In this document: positions 19,723 through 36,074 of the stretch, piece after piece | Numbering within the stretch: the stretch's first letter is position 1 | Layout: every line of letters starts with the position of its first letter | Position numbers and translations under genes: made by a program | The notes under the pieces: model-generated | The model's database searches: none | Told to the model about the DNA's origin: nothing | What the model saw: only the letters and a program-made list of their open reading frames with translations | Assembly (NCBI GenBank): GCA_031254575.1 | Contig: JAIRUE010000067.1 | Coordinates: 1-37,792, forward strand | Source: Oscillospiraceae bacterium | Lineage (GTDB): Bacteria; Bacillota; Clostridia; Oscillospirales; UBA929 | DNA: 37,792 bases | Direction of reading: 5' to 3'

Positions 19723-19763
19723 TACAAGCCGAAACCGTTTTCCTCTAATTTCTAAACAAATGT

Positions 19764-19792
19764 TTGCGTTTTTTCTTTCCCTGTGCTATACT
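19764..19792 (+). promoter_or_regulatory. Promoter of the radical SAM pair
   Basis: TTGCGT (19764-19769), 17-bp spacer and TATACT (19787-19792), 25 bp before the start codon at 19817. Confidence 0.65.
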
Positions 19793-19816
19793 GTTTTTAT
19801 AAAGGGGGCGCACCGG

Positions 19817-21136
19817 ATGGACCGCATGCAAAAACTCAATATTTTGGGCGACGCGGCAAAGTTTGACGCGTCCTGCGCGTCAAGCGGGAGCGGGCGCGCC
19901 GGCAAGCCGGGCCAGCTTGGAAACGCGTTTTCGGCGGGCATCTGCCACACCTGGGGCGCCGACGGGCGGTGTATCTGTTTACTGAAGGTGCTGCAGAGCA
20001 ATGTCTGCATTTATGATTGTCAATATTGCCACAACCGTTGCAGCAACGACGTTCCGCGCGCCACATTCAGGCCGGAGGAGCTTGCAGAGCTGACAGTGCA
20101 GTTTTACCGCCGCAACTATATCGAGGGGTTGTTCCTCTCGTCCGGCGTAATCCGGAACCCCGATTATACAATGGAGCAAATGATACAGACCATGCGCATC
20201 CTGCGCGATACGCACAAGTTCGGCGGCTACATCCATGTCAAGACCATTCCCGGCGCGGATATGCGGCTGGTGACCGGGGCGGGGCTGCTGGCCGACCGCG
20301 TCAGCGTCAATATCGAGCTGCCGTCGTCGGGTTCGCTGGCGCTGCTCGCGCCGGATAAAAAGCCGGAGATGATTTTCTCGCCGATGCGCGGCATTGATTC
20401 GGCGCGCCGGATGTATCTGGAAGACGGCCAAAAGCACCGCCACGCGCCCCTTTTCGCTCCCGCGGGGCAGTCCACGCAGATGATTGTCGGGGCCACCGGA
20501 GACACCGACCGCACCATCCTGCGGCTTTCCGGCGGCCTATACCGGAAGTTCCGGCTCAAACGCGTCTATTTTTCGGCTTATATCCCCGTCGGGACGCACC
20601 CGGCCCTGCCGCCGCGCGAGACCGCCCCCGTGCCGCTGCTGCGGGAGCACCGGCTTTACCAGTCCGACTGGCTGATGCGGTTCTATTCGTTCAGCCCGGA
20701 CGAGATCACCGAAAACGGCGAGCTGCTGGATATGGACGTCGACCCCAAATGCGCGTGGGCGCTGCGCCATCCCGAATTTTTCCCGGTGGAAGCCAATCGC
20801 GCCGACCGTGAGACGCTGCTGCGCGTGCCCGGCGTGGGCGTCAGATCGGCGGATAAAATCATCGAGGCGCGGCGTTACGGCCCGCTTCGCCCCGAAAACC
20901 TGCGCAAACTGGGCATCGTGATGAAGCGGGCGCGCTTTTTCCTCACGGCGGGCGGCAAATACGAGGGCGAGTCCCGCCACGACCACCCGTTCCTGCGCGA
21001 GCTGCTGACAGACCGCTTTGACAACGGGCAGACGTCGCTGTTCGCCGGTCAGGGAGTGAGCGCCCTTCCCCCCGCGCCGGAAGCGCCGGCGGCGGCGCCC
21101 GCCGCTCCGTCTTTCTTAAAAATGATCAACGCATGA
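19817..21136 (+). CDS. Radical SAM protein, putative DNA modification/repair
   Basis: A 439-residue protein of the 'putative DNA modification/repair radical SAM' family (TIGR03916 type). The cluster motif CIYDCQYC is at residues 64-71 (CX3CX2C), with further nearby cysteines (CIC at 52-54, Cys75). Radical-SAM barrel segments follow, for example YIEGLFLSSGVIRNPDYTM and GGYIHVKTIPGAD. Near residues 335-375 a helix-hairpin-helix DNA-binding motif is clear: LLRVPGVGVRSADKIIEARR. The C-terminus is Ala/Pro-rich. The start chosen follows a GGGGGCGC ribosome site; the upstream in-frame ATG lies in the promoter. It overlaps its partner gene by 4 bp. The reaction is not known for the family. Confidence 0.92.
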   Translation: MDRMQKLNILGDAAKFDASCASSGSGRAGKPGQLGNAFSAGICHTWGADGRCICLLKVLQSNVCIYDCQYCHNRCSNDVPRATFRPEELAELTVQFYRRNYIEGLFLSSGVIRNPDYTMEQMIQTMRILRDTHKFGGYIHVKTIPGADMRLVTGAGLLADRVSVNIELPSSGSLALLAPDKKPEMIFSPMRGIDSARRMYLEDGQKHRHAPLFAPAGQSTQMIVGATGDTDRTILRLSGGLYRKFRLKRVYFSAYIPVGTHPALPPRETAPVPLLREHRLYQSDWLMRFYSFSPDEITENGELLDMDVDPKCAWALRHPEFFPVEANRADRETLLRVPGVGVRSADKIIEARRYGPLRPENLRKLGIVMKRARFFLTAGGKYEGESRHDHPFLRELLTDRFDNGQTSLFAGQGVSALPPAPEAPAAAPAAPSFLKMINA

Positions 21137-21891
21137 CAAATCTGTATTATACCCCCACATGGGAGGGGTTTCTGACCGCCGTGTTCGAGGCGTTTGACCG
21201 CGGGCGGCGCGGGGAGACCGTGTCGATCCGCCACCCGCGCGAATCGGCGGAGACGAGCATGTTTGACGCCGCGCCGTGCCATCCTGACCCGGACAAAGCC
21301 GGGCGGGTGGAGCGGGGGATGGCGCGCCTCGCGCCCGGTTTGCCGGAGACGGTTTATATGGCGTGGCTTTCCGAGAGGCCCGGTGTGGAGGACGACCTGC
21401 TGGGACTGCTCGCGCTGGGGTTTGAGCGGAAACGCGACCCGCGCGGGGACATGACCCATCCTTTGGTGATGAGCGTCTCCAAGGCTGCGCGCCAGACGGG
21501 GCAGGAGCGCCAGCGTATGCTTCAGTTTGTGCGCTTTGTGCAGACGCCGGAGGGGATCTATGTCGCCGACATTGAGCCGAACAGCAACGTATTGCCGCTG
21601 ATCGCCGAGCACTTCCACGGGCGGTTCAACGACCAGCGTCTTCTCATCAGGGACCTGCGGCGTCGGCTGGTTCTGGTTTCCCGGCAGAACGGCTGGTTTA
21701 TCCGCGAGCTGGGTCCGGACGAGGAGATCCCTCCCCTCCCGGAGGACGGGCTCTTTGAAGACCTCTGGCGCGGCTACTTCCGGGCCGTATCCAACCCGGC
21801 GCGGAAAAATCTCAGGCTCCAGCAGCATTTTGTCCCTCTGCGCTACCGGGAACACCTGACGGAATTCCAGGCGGGCGCGGCGCGTTTCTAA
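21133..21891 (+). CDS. Partner of the DNA-repair radical SAM protein (TIGR03915/DUF4130-type)
   Basis: A 252-residue protein of the 'probable DNA metabolism protein' family that is nearly always encoded beside the radical SAM protein above, and in other bacteria is fused to a uracil-DNA-glycosylase-like domain. Conserved features are the N-terminal YTPTWEGFLTAVFEAF, the middle VSKAARQTGQERQRMLQFVRF, and the C-terminal LWRGYFRAVSNPARKNLRLQ and HFVPLRYREHLTEF. No glycosylase domain is attached here, so this is the short form. Start and preceding stop overlap (ATGA), indicating coupled translation. A role in DNA base handling is inferred from family association only. Confidence 0.9.
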   Translation: MTNLYYTPTWEGFLTAVFEAFDRGRRGETVSIRHPRESAETSMFDAAPCHPDPDKAGRVERGMARLAPGLPETVYMAWLSERPGVEDDLLGLLALGFERKRDPRGDMTHPLVMSVSKAARQTGQERQRMLQFVRFVQTPEGIYVADIEPNSNVLPLIAEHFHGRFNDQRLLIRDLRRRLVLVSRQNGWFIRELGPDEEIPPLPEDGLFEDLWRGYFRAVSNPARKNLRLQQHFVPLRYREHLTEFQAGAARF

Positions 21892-21960: not shown

Positions 21961-24060
21961 ATGTTCGACCACAGAGCCGAAGCGAAAAAACTGGTTGCCC
22001 AAATGACCCTGGAGGAGAAGGTCTCGCAGATGCTGCACACCGCGCCCGCCATAGAGCGGCTCGGCATTCCGAGCTACAACTGGTGGAACGAGGCGTTGCA
22101 CGGGGTCGCCCGCGCGGGCGTCGCCACGATGTTCCCGCAGGCCATCGGGCTGGCGGCCACCTTTGACCCCGAGCTGGTCTATGAAATCGCGACCGTCATA
22201 TCCGACGAGGCGCGCGCCAAATACCACGCCTATCAGGAGGAGGGCGACCACGACATTTTCAAGGGACTCACCTTCTGGTCGCCCAATATCAATATCTTCC
22301 GCGACCCGCGCTGGGGCCGCGGCCATGAGACGTACGGCGAAGACCCCTACCTCACGGCCCGGACCGGCGTCGCGTTCATTAAAGGATTGCAGGGCCCGGA
22401 CCGCGACGCCCTGAAAGTCGCCGCCTGCGCCAAGCATTTCGCCGTCCACAGCGGCCCGGAGGGGCTGCGCCATGAATTCAACGCCGCCGCCGGCGACTAC
22501 GACCTTTGGAATACATACCTTCCCGCCTTTGAGGCCGCCGTCACCGAGGCCGGCGTCGAGATCGTCATGGGCGCGTACAACCGCACCAACGGCGAACCCT
22601 GCTGCGGCAGCAAGACGCTGCTGCTGGACATCCTGCGCGGCAAGTGGGAATTTGACGGCCATGTGACCTCCGACTGCTGGGCCGTCAAGGACTTCCACGA
22701 ACACCACAAGGTGACGGCCACGCCGGTCGAAAGCGTAGCGCTGGCCGTACGCAACGGCTGCGACCTCAACTGCGGCAACCTGTTCGGCTATTGCGTCGCG
22801 GCGGTGCGGGAGGGATTGCTGACCGAGGAGGAGATCGACCGCGCCGTGACCAACCTGATGGTCACCCGTATGCGGCTCGGTCTGCTGGGCGCGCCGGAAA
22901 ACAAGGCGTATACCTCCATCCCCTATGACGTCGTGGACTGTGAAGAACACCGCGCCTTCAACCTTGACGCCGCCCGAAAGTCTTTGGTGCTGCTGAAGAA
23001 CAACGGCGCGCTGCCGCTGAAGGCGGGCGGGATGAAGCGGATCGCCGTCGTCGGCCCCAACGCAGACAGCCGCATCGCCCTGGAGGGCAATTATCAGGGC
23101 GTGGCGTCCGATCATATCACCGTTCTGCAGGGCGTCAGGGCGCTGGCGGAGGAACAGGGCATACGCACTCTCTTTGCAGAGGGCTGCCCTATCCATAAGG
23201 TGAACGACAGCGGCCTCTCTCAATTTCCCGACGACAGGCAGGCCGAGGCGCTGATCGTCACAAAGCGCGCCGACGCGGTCATACTCGTGCTCGGGCTGGA
23301 CCGTGACCTGGAGGGCGAGGAGGGCGACACGGGCAACCAGTTCGCCTCCGGCGACAAACTGGGGCTTGTGCTTCCGGGCCATCAGCAGCAGATGGCGGAA
23401 AAGGTCATTGAAACGGCGAAAGGCAAGGGCATACCGGTCATCGCCGCCATCCTGTCGGGCAGCGCGCTTGACCTGCGCTGGGCCGACGAAAACGCCGACG
23501 CGGTTATCCAGGCTTTTTACCCCGGGTCGCAGGGCGGCCGGGCGGTCGCGGAGCTGATATTCGGCAGGTTCTCCCCCGTCGGCCGTCTGCCGCTTACCTT
23601 CTACCGCTCCGACGCCGACCTGCCCGATTTTTGCGATTACTCGATGCAAAACCGCACCTACCGTTATTTCAAAGGCGAGGCGCTCTATCCGTTCGGTTTC
23701 GGGCTGGGCTTCGAGCCGTTTGAGCTGTCCGGCGCTTCATATGAGGACGGCGCCGTGAAAGTCAGCGTCAAAAACGCGGGGAAAGCCCGCGCCGCCGAGA
23801 CGGTGCAGGTGTATATTGAAATTGAGGGGGAGAAAGAAAACCGGAGCCTCTGCGGGCTGAAGAAAGTGGAACTGGACGCGGGCATGAGCGCGAACGTGAC
23901 GATCCCTATCCCGTCCGAGGCTTTCATGCGGTACGACGGGGAGGGCGACATGCGGCTCTGTTACGGAAAGAAGGCTCTGTATGTCGGCTTCTGCCAGCCC
24001 GACCCGCGCAGTATCCTGCTGAAAGGACACACGCCGGTACGGCTTGAGGTGCAGGGCTGA
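21961..24060 (+). CDS. Glycoside hydrolase family 3 (beta-xylosidase/beta-glucosidase)
   Basis: A 699-residue intracellular GH3 enzyme (no signal peptide). The (beta/alpha)8 domain covers about 1-300, with NWWNEALHGVA near residue 40, WSPNINIFRDPRWGRGHETY near 107, KHFAVHSGPE near 158 and the nucleophile Asp238 in VTSDCWAV. The second sandwich domain (~330-580) contains the acid/base region VILVLGLDRDLEGEEGDTG. A short fibronectin-III-like domain ends the protein (about 600-690). The NWWNEALHG and AVHSGPE patterns are those of the xylosidase-like GH3 group, so it probably cleaves xylo-oligosaccharides from their non-reducing ends. The adjacent GH67/aldouronate uptake operon supports this. It has its own promoter and a bidirectional terminator. 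Confidence 0.96.
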   Translation: MFDHRAEAKKLVAQMTLEEKVSQMLHTAPAIERLGIPSYNWWNEALHGVARAGVATMFPQAIGLAATFDPELVYEIATVISDEARAKYHAYQEEGDHDIFKGLTFWSPNINIFRDPRWGRGHETYGEDPYLTARTGVAFIKGLQGPDRDALKVAACAKHFAVHSGPEGLRHEFNAAAGDYDLWNTYLPAFEAAVTEAGVEIVMGAYNRTNGEPCCGSKTLLLDILRGKWEFDGHVTSDCWAVKDFHEHHKVTATPVESVALAVRNGCDLNCGNLFGYCVAAVREGLLTEEEIDRAVTNLMVTRMRLGLLGAPENKAYTSIPYDVVDCEEHRAFNLDAARKSLVLLKNNGALPLKAGGMKRIAVVGPNADSRIALEGNYQGVASDHITVLQGVRALAEEQGIRTLFAEGCPIHKVNDSGLSQFPDDRQAEALIVTKRADAVILVLGLDRDLEGEEGDTGNQFASGDKLGLVLPGHQQQMAEKVIETAKGKGIPVIAAILSGSALDLRWADENADAVIQAFYPGSQGGRAVAELIFGRFSPVGRLPLTFYRSDADLPDFCDYSMQNRTYRYFKGEALYPFGFGLGFEPFELSGASYEDGAVKVSVKNAGKARAAETVQVYIEIEGEKENRSLCGLKKVELDAGMSANVTIPIPSEAFMRYDGEGDMRLCYGKKALYVGFCQPDPRSILLKGHTPVRLEVQG

Positions 24061-24117: not shown

Positions 24118-24897
24118 TCAGTCCTCCCTCCGCTGCCGCCGCGCCTGCGACGGAGGCACGCCCTTTATCTGCTTATACACCCGGCTGAAATAAAACAGAT
24201 CGGAAAACCCGCATTCGCGCGCGGTCTCGTTGACGTTGCGTTCACCGAAACGCAGCAGGTTTTCGGCGTGGTTGAGGCGGATCGATATGAGGGCCTGACG
24301 GAACGTCGAACCGGTGGCCTGTTTGAACAGCGCGCCGAAATACACGGGGGTCAGACCGACGGCTTCGGCGGCGGCCCGGACGGTCAGCGGCTCCGCGAAA
24401 CGGTCGGTCATGAACCGTATGGCGGTTTTGACGCGGGGGTCTGCCCGCACGGAATCATTGTTGTAAATGACAAGCTCAAAATACCGGTGCAGGATCAGCA
24501 TAAAATAAGCCCGCGCTTTCATGATGTACCCCGGCTCGCGCCGCAGCCACTCCCCGTTCAGTTCCTTATAAAGGGCGAGGATGTCGGGATGGTGCCCGAT
24601 GTGGCTGAGCAGCGGCAGCGGCATAACGGCTTCCGCGCCGTTCAGCCCGGTCAGCTGGAAGTTCGCGGCGTAAATCTCCGGCGTACCGCCGGCGGAACGC
24701 TTGCGGCCTTTGGGTATGCAAAGCAGGTCGCCCGCCGAGAGGATGATCTCCTCATCGTCGATCCGGTAGACCGCGTTCCCCCCGACGATGTAGCTCACGT
24801 CAATAAAATTGATGACGGATTCTTCGATCTTCCAATCCGGCGTACTCCCGCGGTAATTGTAATACCCGATGTCGGGAATGAGATTGTTAATATCCAT
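24118..24897 (-). CDS. AraC-family regulator with cupin sensor domain
   Basis: A 259-residue regulator. The N-terminal ~120 residues are a cupin-like arm (VSYIVGGNAVYRIDDEEIIL, then GDLLCIPKGRKRS), as in sugar-responsive AraC proteins. The C-terminal ~100 residues carry two helix-turn-helix motifs: LTVRAAAEAVGLTPVYFGAL and VNETARECGFSDLFYFSRVY, ending in the usual GVPPSQAR. It is divergent from the alpha-glucuronidase/transporter operon with a ~93-bp shared control region and convergent to GH3. The likely role is activation of xylan-oligosaccharide use in response to an aldouronate or xylo-oligosaccharide; the ligand is inferred from context only. Confidence 0.93.
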   Translation of the reverse strand: MDINNLIPDIGYYNYRGSTPDWKIEESVINFIDVSYIVGGNAVYRIDDEEIILSAGDLLCIPKGRKRSAGGTPEIYAANFQLTGLNGAEAVMPLPLLSHIGHHPDILALYKELNGEWLRREPGYIMKARAYFMLILHRYFELVIYNNDSVRADPRVKTAIRFMTDRFAEPLTVRAAAEAVGLTPVYFGALFKQATGSTFRQALISIRLNHAENLLRFGERNVNETARECGFSDLFYFSRVYKQIKGVPPSQARRQRRED

Positions 24898-24946
24898 CGC
24901 GCAGCCCCAAATCTTTAATAATCACAAATTTTCTTTAGTATATCCA

Positions 24947-24975
24947 TGTTCAAGCCGATTTGTCAATGTTATAAT
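24947..24975 (+). promoter_or_regulatory. Possible promoter of the GH67/transporter operon
   Basis: TATAAT (24970-24975) is consensus, but the -35 17 bp upstream (TGTTCA, 24947-24952) is poor, as expected for a promoter needing an AraC-type activator. The predicted start would leave a very short leader before the AAGGGG ribosome site (24981-24986), so the real start may lie elsewhere. Confidence 0.4.
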
Positions 24976-24990
24976 AAATCAAGGGGATTC

Positions 24991-26700
24991 ATGCGTTGTT
25001 TTATTCATTTTGACGATAAGGGACGTGTGGGCTTGCCAAACTCCGCATACAGCGAATACAACATGTGGTTCCAAAACGGGGACGCCGCTCCGCCCGGAAC
25101 GGTTCCCGCCGTTCCGGAACGTATCCTCAACCACTGGGACAATATGGACGGGACTATTGAACGCGGCTACAGCGGCAAGTCGCTCTTTTTCAGGGACGGG
25201 ACTATTTCCTATGACCCCGAAAGGATCAAACTTTACGCCCGCCTGCTGGCCTCCGTCGGTATCAACCGCGTCTGCTTCAACAACGTCAACGTCACGCCGC
25301 GGGCCGCGAGGCTCATCACCGGCGAAATGCTGCCCGCTTTGGGCAAACTCGCCGGTATCTTCCGGGCAGCCGGCATACGCAGCATCATTGCCGTCGATTT
25401 TAACAGCCCCGTTCTGCTGGGCGGACTGCCCACATCCGACCCGCTGGACGGGAAGGTGGCCGCATGGTGGGAGAACACGGCTGTTCTGGTATACAAAGTC
25501 ATCCCCGACCTCGCGGGCTTTCTGGTCAAGGCGGATTCCGAGTTCCGGGATGGCCCCGCCGCGCTGGGGCGCACGCAGGCCGACGGGGCAAACGTATTGG
25601 CCCGCGCGTTGAAGCCGCACGGCGGCAAGGTATACTGGCGCTGTTTTGTCTACAACTGCGAGCAGGACTGGCGGGATTTCGCAACGGACCGCCCGAAGGC
25701 CGCCTACGACCATTTCTTTCCGCTGGACGGCGCGTTTGAGGACAACGTGATCCTGCAAATAAAATACGGCCCGTCCGATTTTCAGGTGCGGGAGCCCCAT
25801 TCCCCGCTGCTGGGCGCGATGAAGCGCACCGCGCAGGCGCTTGAGCTGCAGATCACGCAGGAGTACACCGGACAGCAGATCGACCTTTACGCGCTGGCGG
25901 CGCAATGGGAGGAATTTTTCGCGTCTCCCGTCTCCGGCACGCGCCGCGCGCGCGATTTGATCGGGCGCGAGGTCACCGCCGTCGCCGCCGTCGCCAACAC
26001 CGGGGACGACCTCAACTGGACGGGGCATACGCTGGCGCAGGCCAACCTCTACGCGTTCGGGCGGATGGCCTGGGACCCGTCGCTGACGGCGCGGGAGGTG
26101 CTGTCCGACTGGATCGGGCTGACGTTCGGGGAGGGACCCGCTTTGCGGGAGCCGTTGCTGGACATGATGCTCCGCTCGCGGGACGTATATGAAAAATACA
26201 CCGCTCCCCTGGGCCTGTGCTGGATGGTCAATACAGGCGGCCACTACGGCCCCAGCCCCGAGGGATATGAGTTTTCCAAATGGGGGACCTATCACCGGGC
26301 CGACCGGGAGGCCGTCGGCGTGGACAGGACGGCCAAAGGCACCGGCTTTACGGCGCAGTACGACCCGTATTTACAGGCGCTGTATGACGACAGGGAGACC
26401 TGCCCGGAGGGATTGCTGCTGTATTTTCACCGCCTGCCGTACACATACCGGCTCAAAAGCGGCAAGACGCTCCTCCAGCATATCTACGACACCCGCTTTG
26501 AGGGGGTTGAGGGCGTTGAGGGCTTTATCCGTATCTGGGACGGCCTGAGACCCCTGCTTCCCGGGAGCGCTTACGATTCCGTGGCGGCGCGGCTGCGGCG
26601 GCAGCTTGCCAACGCCAGGGAGTGGCGCGACGTTCTCAATACATACTTTTATCGGAAAACAGGCGTCCCCGACGCAAACGGGCGGATCATTCATCCCTAA
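24991..26700 (+). CDS. Alpha-glucuronidase, family GH67 (lacks N-terminal domain)
   Basis: A 569-residue enzyme that removes (4-O-methyl-)glucuronic acid from xylo-oligosaccharides. The catalytic barrel is complete: ILNHWDNMDGTIERGYSGKS near residue 45, GINRVCFNNVNV near 90, general acid Glu184 in KADSEF, and the base pair Asp263 (GPSDFQ) and Glu291 (QITQEY), matching the residues known in GH67; the C-terminal helical domain is present to NTYFYRKTG. Family members are about 680 residues; here the ~140-residue N-terminal domain is replaced by ~40 unrelated-looking residues. No secretion signal, so it acts in the cytoplasm. The ATG at 24991 with AAGGGG was preferred to an in-frame start at 24946 inside the promoter. 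First gene of the transporter operon. Confidence 0.95.
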   Translation: MRCFIHFDDKGRVGLPNSAYSEYNMWFQNGDAAPPGTVPAVPERILNHWDNMDGTIERGYSGKSLFFRDGTISYDPERIKLYARLLASVGINRVCFNNVNVTPRAARLITGEMLPALGKLAGIFRAAGIRSIIAVDFNSPVLLGGLPTSDPLDGKVAAWWENTAVLVYKVIPDLAGFLVKADSEFRDGPAALGRTQADGANVLARALKPHGGKVYWRCFVYNCEQDWRDFATDRPKAAYDHFFPLDGAFEDNVILQIKYGPSDFQVREPHSPLLGAMKRTAQALELQITQEYTGQQIDLYALAAQWEEFFASPVSGTRRARDLIGREVTAVAAVANTGDDLNWTGHTLAQANLYAFGRMAWDPSLTAREVLSDWIGLTFGEGPALREPLLDMMLRSRDVYEKYTAPLGLCWMVNTGGHYGPSPEGYEFSKWGTYHRADREAVGVDRTAKGTGFTAQYDPYLQALYDDRETCPEGLLLYFHRLPYTYRLKSGKTLLQHIYDTRFEGVEGVEGFIRIWDGLRPLLPGSAYDSVAARLRRQLANAREWRDVLNTYFYRKTGVPDANGRIIHP

Positions 26701-26719
26701 ATCGATCGGGAGGATTTGT

Positions 26720-28681
26720 ATGGTAGAAGTGCGTGACGCGCGGCTTGGGGAGGAGGGAAACTCCTATTATGACGGCAGGTTTGTTTCCCATCTGGCTCCC
26801 CGGCTGCTGGGTTTCCTGTTCTTTCCCGCCGTGCCGGCGGGCGCGTTCGCCGCGATTATAGCGATCGGGGGATACCGCGCCCTGCTTGCCGCCGTCATTA
26901 CGGGGGCGGCGCTGTGCTTTGTATGCGGCCCCGCCGCCGCCGCGGTCAGGATTCTCCTGACGGTGAACCACACGGTCGTGGACGGCGCGCCGCTGGAGTA
27001 CACGGGCCGTTTTGCCGGCACGGCCCTCTTCCTGATAAAGCTCAGCCTGTTCAGCCTCGCCACATTGGGGCTGTATTGGCTTTCGGGGCTTTCGGCCGCC
27101 GCCGTCAACCGGTACGTTTACGAACGGACTTCCCGGAAAGGCGGCGCGCCGGGCCGGTCAGGCTTTGTCGGCAATTTTGTCCATATCATCCTGCCGCGGG
27201 TCATCATTGTCGCCGTCCCGCTGATCCTCCTGTATATGTCCGGACTGCTCCCCCTGCGCCCCCAAAACGGCGAACGCTTCCTCGACTATCTGGCGAAGCA
27301 CCCGGATCAGGAACCCTCCATGCACCTGTGGACGCTGATGAGGTATGTCGTCTACATGGGTTCTGACGCCCTCCGCAGCGGCACCTTCTACAACGAGGTC
27401 ACCACGCTGATCTGGTCGGGGATCATGCTCTTTATCGCGGCGCTTGTCCTGCTCCCGTGGTATCGCGGCAGGATGCTGAAATGGCAGATCGACAACACCG
27501 TCATCGACGGATACCGCCTCACTTACAGCGCGGTCCACAACGACTATTTCCTTCTCGTCTTTCTCAACGGCTTTCTGAGCGTCGTCACGCTGGGGTTGTT
27601 TAATATCCTGGGGCTCAGCCGGCTCAGCATGATGAAATTCCGCGCCAAACACACCCATGTGTATGTTCCGGTTTCCGGGCAGGCGTCGCAGACGTCTTAT
27701 ATGATACCGCCCGAAGCGCTGAGGGTGACGTGGCGCGGCCATATGCGCGCCGTCTTCAGCCCGGAGGCGCGGCTGAGGACAAAAAACTACGCGCGGCGCT
27801 ACTGGACGCTGTACCTCCTGCTTATCGTCCCGATGGTGTATCTGATCGTTTTCAAGTACATCCCGATGCTCTATATTCAAATGGGCTTTAAGACGAACAA
27901 CATCATGCTCCCGGTCTGGGACAACCCGTGGTCAAGCAACTACGGCTTTGAATGGTTCATCAAGGCCTTTAAGAACAAGGACTTCATCAACGCCCTCCGC
28001 AACACGCTGGTGCTCAACGGGCTCGATCTGCTGTTCGGCTTCCCGGCCCCGATCATTCTGGCCCTTCTGCTCAACGAGCTGTCGTTCAGGAAATATAAAC
28101 GCATCTCCCAGACCATCTTCTATATGCCCCACTTCCTGTCGTGGGTCATCATCGCCGCCCTGGCCCTCAAGCTGTTCAGCAGCACGGGGCTGGTCAACCT
28201 GATGCTGGAGAACGCAGGCAGAACGCCGCTCGCGCCGTTCAGCGACAACGCCCAGTGGGTGGTCATGTACGTATTGCTGGGGATTTGGCAGAGCGCCGGC
28301 TGGGGTACGATCATCTACCTTGCGGCCATCACCAATATAAACCCCGAACTCTATGAGGCCGCCGAGGTCGACGGCGCCGGCCGCCTGCGCAAGATATGGA
28401 ACATCACGCTGCCGGGGCTGCGCCCCACCATCATCGTCCTGCTGATCATGCGGATGGGAAGTATCCTGGGCAGCGATTTCGAGCGCCCCTTCGCCTTGAA
28501 AAACCCTCTGGTTTCCCCGGTCGCCGATGTGATCTCGATCTACGTCTACACGCACGGCATCCGTGGCACGCAGTTCGCGCTGTCGTCGGCGGTCGGCATC
28601 TTCCAGTCCGCCATCTGTCTGATTTTCCTGTTCGGAGCGAACTCTCTCGCCAAGAAATTCGGCGAGAGGGGTATTTGGTAA
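26720..28681 (+). CDS. LplB-type ABC permease fused to a DUF898-like membrane domain
   Basis: A 653-residue protein about twice the usual LplB length (~300). Residues ~357-653 are a standard carbohydrate (CUT1) permease: it begins RYWTLYLLLIVPMVYLIVFK as free-standing LplB proteins do, and has the EAA loop EAAEVDGAGRLRKIWNITLP that contacts the ATPase. Residues 1-320 add about six membrane spans with two repeated units: NHTVVDGAPLEYTG with SLATLGLYW, and DNTVIDGYRLTYS with SVVTLGLFN. This pattern (NTxxDGxxLxYT plus TLG-[LI]-[YF]) resembles DUF898/YjgN-like proteins. No frameshift or internal start separates the halves. It lies 19 bp after GH67 and 15 bp before the second permease, within the aldouronate uptake operon. 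The role of the extra domain is unknown. Confidence 0.9.
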   Translation: MVEVRDARLGEEGNSYYDGRFVSHLAPRLLGFLFFPAVPAGAFAAIIAIGGYRALLAAVITGAALCFVCGPAAAAVRILLTVNHTVVDGAPLEYTGRFAGTALFLIKLSLFSLATLGLYWLSGLSAAAVNRYVYERTSRKGGAPGRSGFVGNFVHIILPRVIIVAVPLILLYMSGLLPLRPQNGERFLDYLAKHPDQEPSMHLWTLMRYVVYMGSDALRSGTFYNEVTTLIWSGIMLFIAALVLLPWYRGRMLKWQIDNTVIDGYRLTYSAVHNDYFLLVFLNGFLSVVTLGLFNILGLSRLSMMKFRAKHTHVYVPVSGQASQTSYMIPPEALRVTWRGHMRAVFSPEARLRTKNYARRYWTLYLLLIVPMVYLIVFKYIPMLYIQMGFKTNNIMLPVWDNPWSSNYGFEWFIKAFKNKDFINALRNTLVLNGLDLLFGFPAPIILALLLNELSFRKYKRISQTIFYMPHFLSWVIIAALALKLFSSTGLVNLMLENAGRTPLAPFSDNAQWVVMYVLLGIWQSAGWGTIIYLAAITNINPELYEAAEVDGAGRLRKIWNITLPGLRPTIIVLLIMRMGSILGSDFERPFALKNPLVSPVADVISIYVYTHGIRGTQFALSSAVGIFQSAICLIFLFGANSLAKKFGERGIW

Positions 28682-28696
28682 GGGGGAACGGGTACC

Positions 28697-29569
28697 ATGA
28701 TCAAGTCAAAGTCCACTAAAATCGGCGACTGGATCATCGCCGTCATATGTTTCTTCATTATTCTGATCTGTATCCTCCCGCTGCTCAACGTCGCCGCCCG
28801 CTCCCTTTCGGACGCCGACTCGCTGATACGGAACAAGGTGTTCCTCTGGCCGAAGGGCTGGAATCTGGGCGCTTACCGGCGGGTGCTGAACGACTCCAAA
28901 TTTGTCCGCTCCCTGCAATGGACGGCCGTCCTGACCGTCATGGGCGTGGTGCTCTCGCTCATTGTCACCACCATCACCGCCTATCCGCTTGTATATGAAA
29001 ATCTCAAGGGACGCAAGATATTCAATACCGCCATCATCTTCACCATGTACTTCGGCGCCGGGACCGTCCCGATGTACCTGCTGCTCAAGCAGATCGGCCT
29101 GCTCAACACATGGCCGGTGCTGCTGCTCCCCTATTGCATGAGCATCTTCAACATGATCATCATGCGAAGTTTCTTCTACGGCATCCCCGACAGCTACCGC
29201 GAATCGGCCGAGATCGACGGGGCGGGGCCGATCCGTATCCTTATCAGTATCTACCTTCCCCTCTCCACCTCGGTCATCGCCACGCTCGCCCTCTTCTACG
29301 CCGTCGGGCGCTGGAACTCCTATACCGACGCCCTTTACTTCCTCAACTCCAAAGAGGAGCAGTTTTTCCCCATCCAGCTCCTGCTCTATAACCTTATCAA
29401 CAGCCTGCAGAGCTTTGACCAGGCGCAGGAGGTCGCCCCGACGGTGGGCATCTCCGAAACGCTCAAAATGGCGTCGGTCATGTTCGCCACCATTCCCATC
29501 CTGTGCGTCTACCCGTGGCTGCAGCGGTACTTTGTGGCCGGCGTGACGCTCGGCGGGGAAAAAGGCTAG
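28697..29569 (+). CDS. LplC/YtcP-type sugar ABC permease
   Basis: A 290-residue carbohydrate permease of the CUT1 class, partner of the LplB-type protein before it. About six membrane spans are visible, starting with WIIAVICFFIILICILPLLN. The EAA loop ESAEIDGAGPIRILISIYLP lies near residue 180 and ends in the IYLPLS turn. The C-terminus YFVAGVTLGGEKG is typical of LplC. The ATG has an AAGGGGG ribosome site. With the neighbouring lipoprotein it fits the putative aldouronate transport system. Like most such operons there is no ATPase gene, so a shared MsmX-like ATPase is expected elsewhere. Confidence 0.95.
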   Translation: MIKSKSTKIGDWIIAVICFFIILICILPLLNVAARSLSDADSLIRNKVFLWPKGWNLGAYRRVLNDSKFVRSLQWTAVLTVMGVVLSLIVTTITAYPLVYENLKGRKIFNTAIIFTMYFGAGTVPMYLLLKQIGLLNTWPVLLLPYCMSIFNMIIMRSFFYGIPDSYRESAEIDGAGPIRILISIYLPLSTSVIATLALFYAVGRWNSYTDALYFLNSKEEQFFPIQLLLYNLINSLQSFDQAQEVAPTVGISETLKMASVMFATIPILCVYPWLQRYFVAGVTLGGEKG

Positions 29570-29635: not shown

Positions 29636-31351
29636 ATGAAAAAAGCACTTTCCCTTCTGCTGGCCGGCCTGATGCTGCTTGCGATGCTGGCCGCCTGCTC
29701 CCCTGAAGACGAACCCCTTCCCGACATCGCGTCGCCCAGCGCGGGGGGCGGCGACGCCGGCCCGCAGCCGTCCCCCTCTCCCGACAACACGCAGGAAGTG
29801 GAGGACGACTCCGAGCTTGACGGCGTGCGCTTCAAGGAGACCCGTCACATCACGGTCGAGATGTACCGGCGCGATGCCGCCCTGACCGAGACCGACAACA
29901 ATGTGTACACGCAGTACATCGCCGAAAAACTCCTGGAGACCCACAACATCGTCGTGGACGAGTACATGCTTGTCGGCCGTTTTGACGAGGAAGCGACCCT
30001 TGTCAACTGGCTGGCGGGCGGCGACGCCCCGGACATCTGCCTCACCTACAACCGGGGAGCCGTTACCGAGTATGAGGACATGGGCGGCCTGGTTGACCTC
30101 GAACCCTTTATCCACGGCTACCAGAGCCTTCTCCCCCATATGTGGGACGTCATCGGCGAATACGGCATGTACAACCGCCGCAAGGCCACCGGCGAGATCT
30201 ACGCCATCGAGAGCGTGCGCAAAGAGGCCGAGCTGACCAACACCTTCGTGCGCGAAGACTGGCTGAAGGCCCTCAGCATCAAAGAACCCAACACCCGTCA
30301 GGAATTTGAGGACATGCTTGTCGCGTTCCGTGACAACGCCGATACCCTGCTCGGCGAGGACGCCGCTTCGATGATCCCGATGATGATGAGCCGCGACGTG
30401 GGTTGGCAGGCCCAGAACATGATGATGTCGTTCGTTCCCAGCAATATGACCGACCGAGACCGCTATGTCTACGGCTTCGACGACAGGCAGGTCCTGTGGC
30501 CCGGCATCAAGGACGCCATCAAGCTGCTCAACAAGTGGTACAATGACGGCCTGCTCTGGAAAGCCTTCTCCGAATATCCCATCACCGACCCCACCGGCAC
30601 AGACCTCATGAAAGCCGGCTATGTGGGCTCCTATATCGGCAACTGGGACTACGTATTCCGCCAGGACATCGGTATCCAGACGGAGCTGAACAAAATCGGC
30701 GCCAACTTTGTCCCGGTAGACCCGTTTGAAAACGACGCCGGCAAAAAATTCAAGCGTCTCTACGGCGTCGGCGGCGACCGCTGCATCATCTTCCCCGACA
30801 CCAACAAAGAGCCGCTGGCCTCCCTGTTCTACCTTGACATGCTCTGCCGCCCGGAGATACTGGAGTTTGTACAGCTCGGCAAAGAGGGCGTCAACTACGA
30901 CATCGTTGACGGCGCCCCGATACCGATCGCCTATGAGGAAGGCACGCCCGGGTATGACGCGTGGGTGCCCTATTCCCTCAACTCCACCAAGAACATCGAC
31001 ATGACCCCGCTGATCAACGGCTACTATCCCGCCGGCCTGACGCAGCTGGCCCGCGCTTCCAGCCCCGACTTCGCCGGCGTGGAATCCAGGCTGATTGCCA
31101 AGGCCGTCGCGTGCGCCCAGAACGACGCCTACGCTTCGCCCGAGGTTTCCGGCTTAACGATCGCCGCCGAGGCCGGGCTGGCCGAAGTCCTCAAGGAAAA
31201 ACGCGACAACCTCTTCAATCTGGCCGTGAACGCCGCGCCCGCCGACTTTGACAGCGTCTGGGATAACGGCATGAACGATTACCTCGCTTCCGGCGGCCAG
31301 GCCATCATCGATGAACGCGCCGAAAAATACGACGCCGCGTACGGAGGATAG
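29636..31351 (+). CDS. LplA-type extracellular solute-binding lipoprotein
   Basis: A 571-residue substrate-binding lipoprotein. The signal MKKALSLLLAGLMLLAML ends in the lipobox LAAC with Cys21; an acidic, Pro/Ser-rich spacer follows to ~60. The mature part is a family 1-like extracellular binding protein of the large LplA/YtcQ type (YIAEKLLETHNIVVDEYML, then WLAGGDAPDICLTYNRGAVT, and GVNYDIVDGAPIPIAYEEG near the C-terminal third). It captures oligosaccharides outside the cell and delivers them to the two permeases. With GH67 in the operon, aldouronates are the expected ligand. A strong TAGGAGG ribosome site precedes it. A small hairpin followed by AAAAAAA just upstream (about 29599-29623) may tune its level. 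Confidence 0.95.
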   Translation: MKKALSLLLAGLMLLAMLAACSPEDEPLPDIASPSAGGGDAGPQPSPSPDNTQEVEDDSELDGVRFKETRHITVEMYRRDAALTETDNNVYTQYIAEKLLETHNIVVDEYMLVGRFDEEATLVNWLAGGDAPDICLTYNRGAVTEYEDMGGLVDLEPFIHGYQSLLPHMWDVIGEYGMYNRRKATGEIYAIESVRKEAELTNTFVREDWLKALSIKEPNTRQEFEDMLVAFRDNADTLLGEDAASMIPMMMSRDVGWQAQNMMMSFVPSNMTDRDRYVYGFDDRQVLWPGIKDAIKLLNKWYNDGLLWKAFSEYPITDPTGTDLMKAGYVGSYIGNWDYVFRQDIGIQTELNKIGANFVPVDPFENDAGKKFKRLYGVGGDRCIIFPDTNKEPLASLFYLDMLCRPEILEFVQLGKEGVNYDIVDGAPIPIAYEEGTPGYDAWVPYSLNSTKNIDMTPLINGYYPAGLTQLARASSPDFAGVESRLIAKAVACAQNDAYASPEVSGLTIAAEAGLAEVLKEKRDNLFNLAVNAAPADFDSVWDNGMNDYLASGGQAIIDERAEKYDAAYGG

Positions 31352-31418: not shown

Positions 31419-34400
31419 CTATTTCCCCTTCGCGGGTTTTGTCGTGACCTCGACGGTAACTGTCTGTGTTTTCCCGCCGGCCCCCGTGATGATGACCCTG
31501 GCTGTGCCTTCCTTTTTCGCGGTTATCTTGGCCTTTTTGGTGTCCAGCGATATAACATCCGTGCCAGCGGGATCAAGCGTATACGTCAGCGCCTTGTTGA
31601 CGTTCTTGCCGGTCACCTTGGCCTTGACGCTGGTTGACTTGCCCGTGTACAGCGTCAGGGAGTCCTTCTTGGGCTTGATCTGGTCCTGGGAGGGGAAATA
31701 AAGGACCTTGACGGAGAGGTTGACTTTTTTGTTGCCGTTGTAGTTGAGGGCGGTCAGTTTGGCGGAACCGGCAATCAGCCCTTTAATGGTCACCGTACCC
31801 GGGCTTGCGGAGTCCGCCTCAAGCATCGGATATGTTATTGTCTTGTCGCTTTTATCCTTGATCTGTTTGGGGATCCACTCGAAATCAAGAAGGGTGGCGT
31901 CCGAAGGCTTTACCACTTTCACGCTGAGGGTGGCGGTTTCGGCGGAAATCGACCCGTCCTCGCTGATACAAAGCGTCAGCTTCTTGACCAGATTGCCGTT
32001 TGCGTCTCTGAACTCCATCTTGGAAATGGCCACCACAGGCTCAAGCCTCCAGGTCTGCTCGCGGATGACAACTTCCTTGATTACGTTGCCGTCCACGTCA
32101 TACTGCTTGGCCTTCACCGTGCCCTTCAGCATTTTGTCTACGGCGGGGTCGGGCTTTTTGGCGGTGACTTTGCATTTTGCCGTGCCGGAATTGGCAATGG
32201 TGAGGTAGTCGTTGTTTTTGACGACGCTGTCGGAAATCAGGTCTTCGTTGAACCGCCACTCCACCGTGGCGTTTGACGCCGCGCCCAGGACGGAATAGGT
32301 GGCGCTCTTGCTCTTTTTAATGGTGGCGGAGGGGCCGGCGCTGACGGTCAGGACGCATGTGGCCGTGAAAGCGCTGTCGGCGACGCTTGTGACGGTGATC
32401 GTAGTCACGCCCGGTTTTTTCGCCGTGATGATGCCGGAATTCTCGTCAACCTCCGCGACATCGGCATCCGACGAACTCCATTTGACGCGCTTGTCGGACG
32501 CGCCGGCGGGCTTGACGGTCGCCGTCAGGGTGAGTTTACCCGGCGTGCTCGCCGTCCCCATAGACATCGTCATCTTTTTCTTGTTGATCGTGACGCCGGT
32601 CGCGGCGGCGCCGGTGATGGCGATCTGGCAGGCGTCGGACTGGACTGTGCCGGCCTCGGCGTAAACCCAGCAGGTGCCCTCGCGCAATGCCGTGACCTTC
32701 CCCTTGTCGTCCACAAAGGCGACGGGGCCGTTATACGGGTCGCTGGGGTCGTATGCCGTAAATCCGGCTTTGTTTCCGGTTTCGTTGTCCAGAACATACC
32801 ATTTGAGGGTGAGCCCCGACGCGAGATTGCCCTCGCTGTTATATTGTTTAGCCGTCAAGGTCGTGGTCCCGCCCGCTTTCAGCGAGGCGGAGGTTTTGCT
32901 TAGCTTGACAACGGCGGGAAGCGTCGCTTTGATCCCGACATAGTTGACGGCGCTTGTTACCGGAACCGCAGGATCATACATTAAGAGCCCATTATCCTTA
33001 AACTTGCCGTCGCTGTCCCTCTCTCCTTTGTGGACCGTAACCCGGAAACCGGCCGTTTGAATGCCCGAAGAAGCCGGAGTGTAATACTTCTCATTTTTGG
33101 AGAATACGGCGTCCGCCGTTCCGTCTTTCTTCACGGTGATCTTTGTCACCATTTGCTCCACATAATTGCTGACGGTCACGATGTTCCAACCGCCGCTGCC
33201 GTCCGATACCCGCGCCTGGTCGGCTTTCCATGCGGGGGTGGTGGTCGTCGGCTTAGAAGACGGGAGATCCCCATCACGGGCAAATATCCCAAACGTGCTG
33301 TTCCAAATCAGCCAATCAGCCGGCTGGGAAACCGCTTCATAATCTCCGGAAATTGGGTCTTTTGTCACGACCGATTCGTCGATATATCCCTCGCTGTCGC
33401 GTTCATAATATGTCATTTCGACTTCCCATTTGACCATGTCCGTAACCGGATAAACGCCTATCACTGATTCATTTGGGATCACATCGCTGGCGTTAAAAGG
33501 TATATAAAGCGGTTTGAGAGTTATCATGCCGCCCGGGGCGACGGTCAGATCGTCTACCTTGTTGTCCGTGTCCGCGACCTCCACGCCGGTCAAACCGACG
33601 TCAACGTCATTCTCGGCGAGCGCTTTGATACAGACCGCCTGGCCGCTGAGTTTGTTCCATTTTGCCCCGTCGAAATAATAGCTGTTGCTTCCGGACGCGG
33701 ACTTCTGAAGCGGGACGGAGGGGTCAACCCCCGAAAGCGTCGTGCTCACCTTGACGACAACGGCGAACTGCTTGCCCTCGAGGACCACGGGGTCAATGGG
33801 GAAAGTGTAATAACCCGGGAGAGGTTTGGTCGTCGTAACGCCCGGTTTTATAGTAACCGCATCCAGCGGATCGCCGGTATAGGCGCTCAGCAGGGTTTCG
33901 AAGTCCTTGTCCTTCTTATAGTCTTGGATGATGTAAATATCCTCAACCGTGCTGTTCTCGACCGGGAGGAAGACCGACACGCCCTGGATGACCGAGGCGG
34001 TCCCGGCGACGGAAAACACGTTGGCATACAGCGCCGTGGACTGGCCGGTCTCTCTCACGCCGGATATGCCGTTGGTATCATATTGATAGGTATGATTGAT
34101 GGGGAATTTTGTGTACTCATAAGGGGCCTCTTTGTTCCGGCGGGGCGTGTGGGGCTTAAAATCAGCGGAAACCGACGGGTCTTTCGTCGCGCTGTAATAC
34201 CCCTCAATGTAATACGCGCCGGTGAGCAACGTGTTGTAGCTGACCCAATAGGTAAAGCCCGGGTTGTTGCTGTCGTAGACCAAAAACGCGCCGCCATCGG
34301 GAAACGCGGGAGTGAGGGCGGGCCTGGTTTCGAATTGCTGAACGCCGTCCTTATCGCCGATGTAATGCGAGATTGTCTTGGTGTCGTCCCAGCCGACAAC

Positions 34401-34988
34401 GACGACGGTGTGGTTCGCGCTCGTGTTCCTGCTGTTGTCATAAACATCGTCGTGACCGTTATGCTCATCAAAACGCATTTTGGGGTCGTAGTAAAAGGAG
34501 AGGGCCACCGCTCTGTTAGCGCTGACGGCGTCTTTGATGTGCTTGATGTAGGCTTTCTTAGACGTCGTATTGTTGATTTCCGGGTCGGGGATGTAGACGA
34601 CGCCGCTGACCGGCGCTTCGGGCTTCGGGCCGCCGTCGCGCAGCAGGTACGACGCGAGAATGGAGCGGTTGCTTTGGGCGGGGCCTTTTATCTCCTCAGG
34701 CTCGTAACTATCACTTAGTCCGGTGACGCGGGCGTTCAGCACGGCCGCCGCCGCGTACGCCCAGGAGGGCGTCGAAGACGGGACGGAACCCGGATTGAAA
34801 GATGAAGTAAACGGGCTACTCCCGTAAGCAGCATTAACGCTGCTCAGTTTGCCCGCCCATGCCTCCGGCGTGTAGTCCGTGCCGCCGTAGTTAGCGCCGG
34901 ATAAAGCCGCCGCCTCGCCCACAAACAAGTACGGGACGGCCAGCGTAAGTACCAGCGCGAGTGAGGTCAGCCTTTTGAAAAATTTCAT
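31419..34988 (-). CDS. Secreted papain-like (Cys-to-Ser) protein with lectin-like and Ig-like domains
   Basis: A 1189-residue exported protein. Residues 1-29 are a signal peptide (TSLALVLTLAVPYLFVGEAA). About 40-260 fold like peptidase C1: the position of the catalytic Cys is Ser75 in PSWAYAAAAVL, where active members have CWAFA; the His motif NHTVVVVGWDD (His193) remains, and the Asn motif is altered to YDSNNPG. About 290-460 match the lectin-like domain that accompanies clostridial C1 proteins (SYYFDGAKWNKLSG). From ~690 come several bacterial Ig-like (Big_2) units, such as VKWSSSDADVAEVDENSG and KITAKKEGTARVIITG. No sortase or S-layer anchor is visible. ATG at 34988 has AAGGAGTGGAG. Probably a surface binding protein, not a protease. 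Confidence 0.85.
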   Translation of the reverse strand: MKFFKRLTSLALVLTLAVPYLFVGEAAALSGANYGGTDYTPEAWAGKLSSVNAAYGSSPFTSSFNPGSVPSSTPSWAYAAAAVLNARVTGLSDSYEPEEIKGPAQSNRSILASYLLRDGGPKPEAPVSGVVYIPDPEINNTTSKKAYIKHIKDAVSANRAVALSFYYDPKMRFDEHNGHDDVYDNSRNTSANHTVVVVGWDDTKTISHYIGDKDGVQQFETRPALTPAFPDGGAFLVYDSNNPGFTYWVSYNTLLTGAYYIEGYYSATKDPSVSADFKPHTPRRNKEAPYEYTKFPINHTYQYDTNGISGVRETGQSTALYANVFSVAGTASVIQGVSVFLPVENSTVEDIYIIQDYKKDKDFETLLSAYTGDPLDAVTIKPGVTTTKPLPGYYTFPIDPVVLEGKQFAVVVKVSTTLSGVDPSVPLQKSASGSNSYYFDGAKWNKLSGQAVCIKALAENDVDVGLTGVEVADTDNKVDDLTVAPGGMITLKPLYIPFNASDVIPNESVIGVYPVTDMVKWEVEMTYYERDSEGYIDESVVTKDPISGDYEAVSQPADWLIWNSTFGIFARDGDLPSSKPTTTTPAWKADQARVSDGSGGWNIVTVSNYVEQMVTKITVKKDGTADAVFSKNEKYYTPASSGIQTAGFRVTVHKGERDSDGKFKDNGLLMYDPAVPVTSAVNYVGIKATLPAVVKLSKTSASLKAGGTTTLTAKQYNSEGNLASGLTLKWYVLDNETGNKAGFTAYDPSDPYNGPVAFVDDKGKVTALREGTCWVYAEAGTVQSDACQIAITGAAATGVTINKKKMTMSMGTASTPGKLTLTATVKPAGASDKRVKWSSSDADVAEVDENSGIITAKKPGVTTITVTSVADSAFTATCVLTVSAGPSATIKKSKSATYSVLGAASNATVEWRFNEDLISDSVVKNNDYLTIANSGTAKCKVTAKKPDPAVDKMLKGTVKAKQYDVDGNVIKEVVIREQTWRLEPVVAISKMEFRDANGNLVKKLTLCISEDGSISAETATLSVKVVKPSDATLLDFEWIPKQIKDKSDKTITYPMLEADSASPGTVTIKGLIAGSAKLTALNYNGNKKVNLSVKVLYFPSQDQIKPKKDSLTLYTGKSTSVKAKVTGKNVNKALTYTLDPAGTDVISLDTKKAKITAKKEGTARVIITGAGGKTQTVTVEVTTKPAKGK

Positions 34989-35084
34989 TATCTCCACTCC
35001 TTGATAAGATGATTCAGGCCGTTTTGGAACTTCCAGACAATATATCGTATTCGAACCGCCGGGACTAAAGCCCCAGCCACGTTT

Positions 35085-35177: not shown

Positions 35178-35870
35178 TCATTGCCTCTCCCCGATCATCC
35201 CGTGCAGCGCCCCCAGCGCGTCGGAGAGCGTGCCCAGGCGGTCGATCAGGCCCATTTCCACGGCTTCCGCGCCGTGGATAACGCTGCCCATGTCGCCGGC
35301 CAGCTCGTCGGTGCGGTGCATCAGCCCGAGATAGGCCTCCTCGCTCACGCGGCTGTTCTGCGCCACAAAGCGCACGATCCGCTCCTGTATTTTCCGCAGG
35401 TAGGTGAAGGTCTGCGGCACGCCCAGGACCGTGCCGTTCATGCGCACGGGGTGTATCGTCATCGCCGCCGACGGCGCGATCATCGACAGCCGGGCCGCCA
35501 CCGCCATCGGCACGCCGATCGAGTGCCCGCCGCCCAGCACCAGCGACACCGCCGGGGTGGACAGCCCGCGGATCAGTTCGGCAATGGCCAGCCCCGCCTC
35601 GATGTCGCCGCCGACGGTATTGAGCAGGATCAGCAGGCCGTCGATTTCCGGCGACTCCTCTATGGCCGCGAGCTGCGGCAGGACATGCTCGTATTTGGTC
35701 GTCTTGACGTTCTGCGGCAGGAGCTGGTGCCCTTCCACCTGGCCGACGATCGTCAGGCAGTGGATCGTCGCCTTCTCCCCGCGCACCGTCGCCGCGCCCA
35801 GTTCCTGTATGGCTTGCCGCTCCTGCTCTGAAAAACCGGGTTCGTCCCCCGTGGCAAACGCTTCGTCCAT
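35178..35870 (-). CDS. TepA-like ClpP-fold serine protease
   Basis: About 230 residues of the ClpP/crotonase fold, close to the translocation-enhancing protein TepA of Firmicutes. Recognisable parts are HCLTIVGQVEGHQLLPQNVK, the substrate-site LLNTVGGDIEAGLAIAELI, the nucleophile region LGGGHSIGVPMAVAA (Ser117) and the His motif MTIHPVRMNG (His140), ending in AVEMGLIDRLG. The ATG at 35870 was chosen; an upstream GTG frame adds 31 Pro/Arg-rich residues without a ribosome site, so the true N-terminus is uncertain. TepA-type proteins are cytoplasmic and linked to protein export or spore processes. It lies upstream of the secreted papain-like protein on the same strand, which has its own promoter. 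Confidence 0.88.
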   Translation of the reverse strand: MDEAFATGDEPGFSEQERQAIQELGAATVRGEKATIHCLTIVGQVEGHQLLPQNVKTTKYEHVLPQLAAIEESPEIDGLLILLNTVGGDIEAGLAIAELIRGLSTPAVSLVLGGGHSIGVPMAVAARLSMIAPSAAMTIHPVRMNGTVLGVPQTFTYLRKIQERIVRFVAQNSRVSEEAYLGLMHRTDELAGDMGSVIHGAEAVEMGLIDRLGTLSDALGALHGMIGERQ

Positions 35871-36074
35871 AGATGGCGCACCGTCCCTTCCGGCCTTAGC
35901 TTGCCCGCGGACGGAACGGTTTATTTCAAAAGCCGGGGCCGGAGGTGACGGGCGCTGCCGCACGACCCGGCTGCCGTTTGTTAGGGTGAATTTTAAGGCC
36001 CTCCCGGCCTTCTCATTTCTGTGGAGGCCGGGAGAGGCCGGTTTCGCCGTCTGCTGTACCTCCAGTAGAAAAGT

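Follow-up and report, generated by a model that had tools for sequence, protein, structure and literature searches.

Does the long frame at positions 26720 to 28681 of an Oscillospiraceae contig (JAIRUE010000067.1) really encode an ABC transporter permease joined to a second membrane domain, and what could such a domain do for the transporter? A preliminary description of the window (the whole stretch of DNA analyzed, 37,792 nucleotides) had read the frame as an LplB-type sugar permease carrying a DUF898-like domain at its N terminus. We found the frame to be uninterrupted over all 653 codons, as described there, and we divide it as follows.

26720..28681, + strand: DUF898-LplB fusion permease, 653 aa, ATG at 26720, stop at 28681, single open frame
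26708..26713, + strand: likely ribosome-binding site gggagg, 6 bp 5' of the fusion ATG
26720..27679, + strand: N-terminal DUF898 domain, residues 1-320, two DUF898 repeats (Pfam, profile of stand-alone DUF898 proteins, alignment)
27680..27784, + strand: weakly conserved linker, residues 321-355 (identity comparison; no internal start codon conserved)
27785..28678, + strand: complete LplB/AlgM1-type type I importer permease, residues 356-653 (alignment to AlgM1 [4tqu_M], Pfam)

The N-terminal part belongs to the DUF898/YjgN family (PF05987), which it matched over residues 43 to 316 with E values of 1.8e-9 for the full protein and 1.4e-10 for residues 1 to 350. The corresponding scores (37.6 and 41.3 bits) exceed the curated Pfam cutoff of 28 bits, as do those of the two orthologues presented below (30.7 and 28.4 bits). 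A profile built from the stand-alone DUF898 proteins found in related genomes detected both repeats, at residues 54 to 120 and 226 to 314, and the repeated [KN][HN]Tx[IV]xG motif followed by a TLG helix was found in the two of them. The motif reads NHTVVDGAPLEYTG in the first repeat (residues 83 to 96) and NTVIDGYRLTY in the second (residues 259 to 269). The second repeat could be aligned with 32 stand-alone proteins, and a multiple alignment placed SYYDG, near the N terminus of the fusion, opposite the SYFDG start of the stand-alone proteins. The assignment to DUF898 therefore stands, with the difference that family members in related genomes are mostly stand-alone proteins of 100 to 120 residues, whereas the fusion carries a longer domain, attached to a permease. 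Hydropathy analysis suggested six membrane-spanning candidates in the extension.

The C-terminal part is a complete LplB, akin to the permeases of the AlgM1-AlgM2 (4tqu) and LplABC/YtcP importers. Residues 359 to 652 cover essentially all of AlgM1 (residues 9 to 300 of 301; E = 1.9e-68), residues 440 to 646 match BPD_transp_1 (PF00528; E = 1.9e-17), and the type I importer core includes its EAA-type loop (EAAEVDGAGRLRKIWNITLP). Since the alignment opens at residue 359 of the fusion and at residue 9 of AlgM1, the junction lies where an ordinary permease starts, close to the residue 350 given in the preliminary description, and AlgM1 has no counterpart of the ∼355-residue extension. One small correction is that the DUF898 part stops near residue 320, residues ∼321 to 355 being a linker. 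MalF, a permease of the same superfamily, also has extra N-terminal sequence, and the match to it begins at MalF residue 275. A PDB sequence search with residues 1 to 357 gave no match to MalF or to any other chain, and Pfam gave no permease match for them either; neither search placed these residues in the ordinary permease fold. In the window's own genome, we found no second DUF898 match and a dozen other permease matches, none of which extended into the extension.

We then asked whether the fusion occurs elsewhere. A survey of 18 genomes of the family turned up two additional carriers, G013 (contig C15, 669 codons) and G009 (contig C4, 780 codons), both stop-free and respectively 60% and 57% identical to the window protein. 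The extension holds six membrane-spanning candidates in G013 and seven in G009, where it contains a 54-residue hydrophobic insertion. Both genomes are metagenome-assembled (MAGs), one from the genus of the window and one from another genus of the family, and they are publicly listed as Oscillospiraceae bacterium Glo450_bin9 and Nt197P3bin64. Termite gut is given as the source of a further MAG of the Nt197P3 series (PMC9386147), and the carriers, a few closely related bacteria, probably live in that habitat.

These orthologues bear directly on whether the frame arose artificially from two genes, through an error in sequencing or assembly. The orthologues being MAGs, and the fragmented genome of the window probably being one too, single-base errors could arise in principle. 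However, the same in-frame junction recurs in three separately assembled genomes, at 57 to 60% protein identity and with no internal stop, which refutes this explanation and leaves it a negligible probability. The frame is kept across the junction in all three genomes. The fusion is thus real and inherited.

It could also be asked whether the permease part is additionally translated by itself, with initiation inside the frame near residue 342. The window sequence does have ATG codons at residues 328 and 342, but neither is preceded by a clear ribosome-binding site; in place of the second one, G013 has GTG, and G009 lacks it. No conserved start codon, conserved ribosome-binding site, or promoter-like site was found at the junction, the one weak promoter match, at 27849, lying inside the permease part. 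We therefore consider separate production of the permease very unlikely.

Comparison of the fused proteins revealed that the extension evolves faster than the permease, with identities of 33 to 52% in the DUF898 part against 69 to 73% in the permease part and 29 to 43% in the linker. Between the window and G013 proteins, identity is 73% in the permease, 48 to 52% in the repeats, and 43% in the linker. The first-repeat motif is degraded in the orthologues (MRVNG, TYVDG), while the second-repeat motif is retained. At codon positions 1, 2, and 3, the window and G013 genes differ by 41, 31, and 57% in the first repeat and by 36, 25, and 54% in the second. Position 2 thus differs least (0.25 to 0.31) and position 3 most (0.54 to 0.57), which indicates coding constraint over the DUF898 part.

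When 16 permease sequences were placed on a tree, the fused LplBs of the three genomes grouped in a single clade (support, 100/99). Their nearest unfused relatives (58 to 61% identity) belong mostly to the same family and lie in lplB-ytcP-lplA operons, beside which no GH67 gene was found. A single gain of the fusion within the family is the simplest reading of these sequences. Similar GH67 genes occur elsewhere in the family: the contig of G006 ends at the position of the fusion, and those of G010 and G011 continue with other genes, so that losses and further carriers are not exactly countable.

To place the fusion in a wider context, we ran a profile of the extension against genome samples at three levels (order, 394 genomes; class, 391; phylum, 398), which overlap slightly and amount to roughly 1,100 genomes. 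No fourth fusion was seen in these samples, where all other matches spanned only profile positions ∼200 to 320 and mostly lay in short frames of ∼100 to 180 codons, i.e., stand-alone DUF898 proteins. The preliminary description had suggested looking for separate DUF898 genes beside lplB; within ∼1.5 kb on either side of the DUF898 genes at 72 sampled loci, neither lplB nor ytcP was present, except in the fusions. When the permease part was searched against 375 genomes of the order, the same three frames were the only long ones among the matches below 1e-75. Contig protein scans, which rely on short peptide patterns and may miss distant fusions, gave no match with the window's own domain and only the two known orthologues with a three-row alignment. 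A scan of viral contigs with the fused N-terminal domain and a tblastn search of plasmids found no further case.

Two long proteins were considered as further fusions and rejected. A 1016-residue frame of G198 resembled an FtsX-like permease by eye and scored below the cutoff. A 740-residue DUF898 protein of G151 (L079:5212-7434, - strand) has several DUF898-type repeats and a different C-terminal part, with a Sel1-like region (by eye) and a soluble C terminus; in this protein, DUF898 is a module joined to other parts. Among transporters of this known kind, the DUF898-LplB fusion is thus a new domain architecture, restricted to one lineage and unreported as far as our searches reach.

The surrounding genes point to the kind of substrate that the transporter may carry. 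The following features flank the fusion.

21961..24060, + strand: GH3 glycosidase, probable beta-xylosidase from context
24118..24897, - strand: AraC-type regulator, divergent (HTH_18, 4.2e-19)
24946..26700, + strand: GH67 alpha-glucuronidase (PF07488, 5.2e-122; PF07477, 4.7e-89)
28697..29569, + strand: YtcP/LplC partner permease, AlgM2-like, without extension (AlgM2 match, 9.4e-49)
29636..31351, + strand: LplA-like lipoprotein, solute-binding protein, AlgQ2-like (AlgQ2 match, 1.1e-12)

The fusion ATG lies 19 bp past the stop codon of the GH67 gene, and the AlgM2-like and AlgQ2-like genes follow directly 3' of the fusion, as expected of an importer operon. The order GH67, fusion, YtcP/AlgM2-like permease, and LplA/AlgQ2-like binding protein is common to all three fused genomes. 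The AraC-type regulator also adjoins GH67 in G013 and G006, and the GH3 gene is present in the G013 locus too. Among solved structures, the three transporter genes match AlgM1, AlgM2, and AlgQ2 best, and these proteins are parts of an alginate importer; alginate is likewise a uronic acid polymer. GH67 enzymes remove methylglucuronic acid from xylo-oligosaccharides. The gene after lplA is on the opposite strand, so the operon has no ATPase gene of its own, which fits the use of shared MsmX-type ATPases by such systems. An excerpt on the aldouronate cluster of Paenibacillus sp. JDR-2 describes the pairing of a GH67 alpha-glucuronidase with ABC transporter genes, together with GH10 and GH43, and makes no mention of a DUF898 fusion (PMC4765114). 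Because GH67 adjoins the transporter in all three loci and because of the JDR-2 precedent, the putative substrate is most likely aldouronates from glucuronoxylan, as judged from neighboring genes only.

Two features of these neighbors were noted in addition. The GH67 frame of the window (24946-26700) begins only ∼50 residues before the middle domain and has no match to the Pfam GH67 N-terminal domain; the GH67 proteins of G009, G011, and G013 also lack this match, with a longer stretch before the middle domain in G013. The YtcP of G009 (L081:9539-10624) has ∼70 extra, largely hydrophobic N-terminal residues (MNMDWFYIIAAGIAAAIQIPW...) that are absent from the YtcP of the window.

We then looked into the structure of the extension. 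AlphaFold gave a moderate model for residues 1 to 330 (35 rows; pLDDT, 68; pTM, 0.44), which consists of long helices, with short beta strands where the two NTxxDG motifs lie and an interruption at the TLG of the second repeat. The full-length model (three rows; pLDDT, 34) was not used. A Foldseek search of PDB and BFVD with the moderate model gave no match at E ≤ 0.001, and second-look fold alignments reached at best a Z score of 6.5, to helical bundles, which is chance level for helical models.

The literature offered little guidance on function. The domain of the urate oxidase PuuD is, we assume, DUF989 (PF06181) and not DUF898. The naming of DUF898 in PuuD is therefore probably a slip in the number, and that report was not used (PMC4562309). 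No DUF898 member of known activity was found in the literature searched. The one DUF898 phenotype in it comes from Enterococcus faecalis, where a transposon insertion in a DUF898 protein of 101 residues was a low-biofilm hit (PMC6753144).

We propose that the fusion is the LplB/AlgM1-type half of an importer of sugar acid oligosaccharides and bears DUF898 as an accessory or regulatory membrane domain, a proposal that we hold with about equal belief and doubt. Aldouronates would be imported and then cleaved intracellularly by GH67; the permease half would work like AlgM1, with a shared MsmX-type ATPase. The DUF898 part may pack beside the six-helix permease core, where it would tune, stabilize, or localize the transporter, perhaps via the NTxxDG hairpins near the membrane surface. 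Its attachment to one permease half would fix it at one copy per transporter. Three features lead us to favor this role: where the domain sits, its presence as a single copy on one permease half, and its conservation. The label "accessory or regulatory" is a reading by default, and of the roles suggested in the preliminary description (regulator, substrate gate, or sensor), none is favored over the others by our results.

The faster evolution of the DUF898 part would also fit a dispensable passenger, i.e., a neutral or nearly neutral fusion that was fixed once and tolerated without disturbing the permease. Its restriction to three genomes of one family and the tolerance of the hydrophobic insertion in G009 agree with this view. 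Yet a useless extension of 350 codons would be expected to be lost or broken, and the frame has instead been kept in two genera despite the divergence of the DUF898 part, with constraint on codon positions and with the second-repeat motif retained, which makes a passenger rather unlikely. We find it similarly improbable that the DUF898 part has an activity of its own, such as binding or moving a lipid, an ion, or a sugar intermediate, coupled to the importer. The existence of DUF898 as short separate proteins in many Bacillota genomes, and its combination with other parts in G151, are what would be expected of an independent unit; however, neither the PDB sequence search, the fold comparisons, nor the literature searched supplied a significant match or a characterized member.

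Within the accessory or regulatory role that we favor, DUF898 might be a transport-regulating membrane module that gives an importer with a shared ATPase its own control, for example by sensing the state of the membrane or the substrate and altering the docking of the ATPase. This specific version is distinctly unlikely at present; if it holds, the fusion would be the earliest hint of what a widespread family does, one with members throughout Bacillota and in E. coli (YjgN). The fusion demonstrates that an LplB core can accommodate a large membrane domain at its N terminus. Its inheritance together with a permease of predictable substrate ties DUF898 to membrane transport and offers a concrete test system. 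The fusion is confined to a handful of uncultured bacteria. It is a useful lead on DUF898 and by itself answers no open question.

Other genes of the window were also inspected. The - strand frame at 31419-34997 encodes a 1192-residue surface-type protein with Lectin_like and Big_2 domains, a signal-peptide-like start, and an N-terminal part that resembles papain-type cysteine peptidases by eye. A ClpP-like peptidase may be encoded at 35178-35963 (- strand), where the matches to ClpP-related models are weak and all below cutoffs. At 19760-21891, a radical SAM protein with a helix-hairpin-helix is followed by a DUF4130 protein, and the two frames overlap by a few bases.
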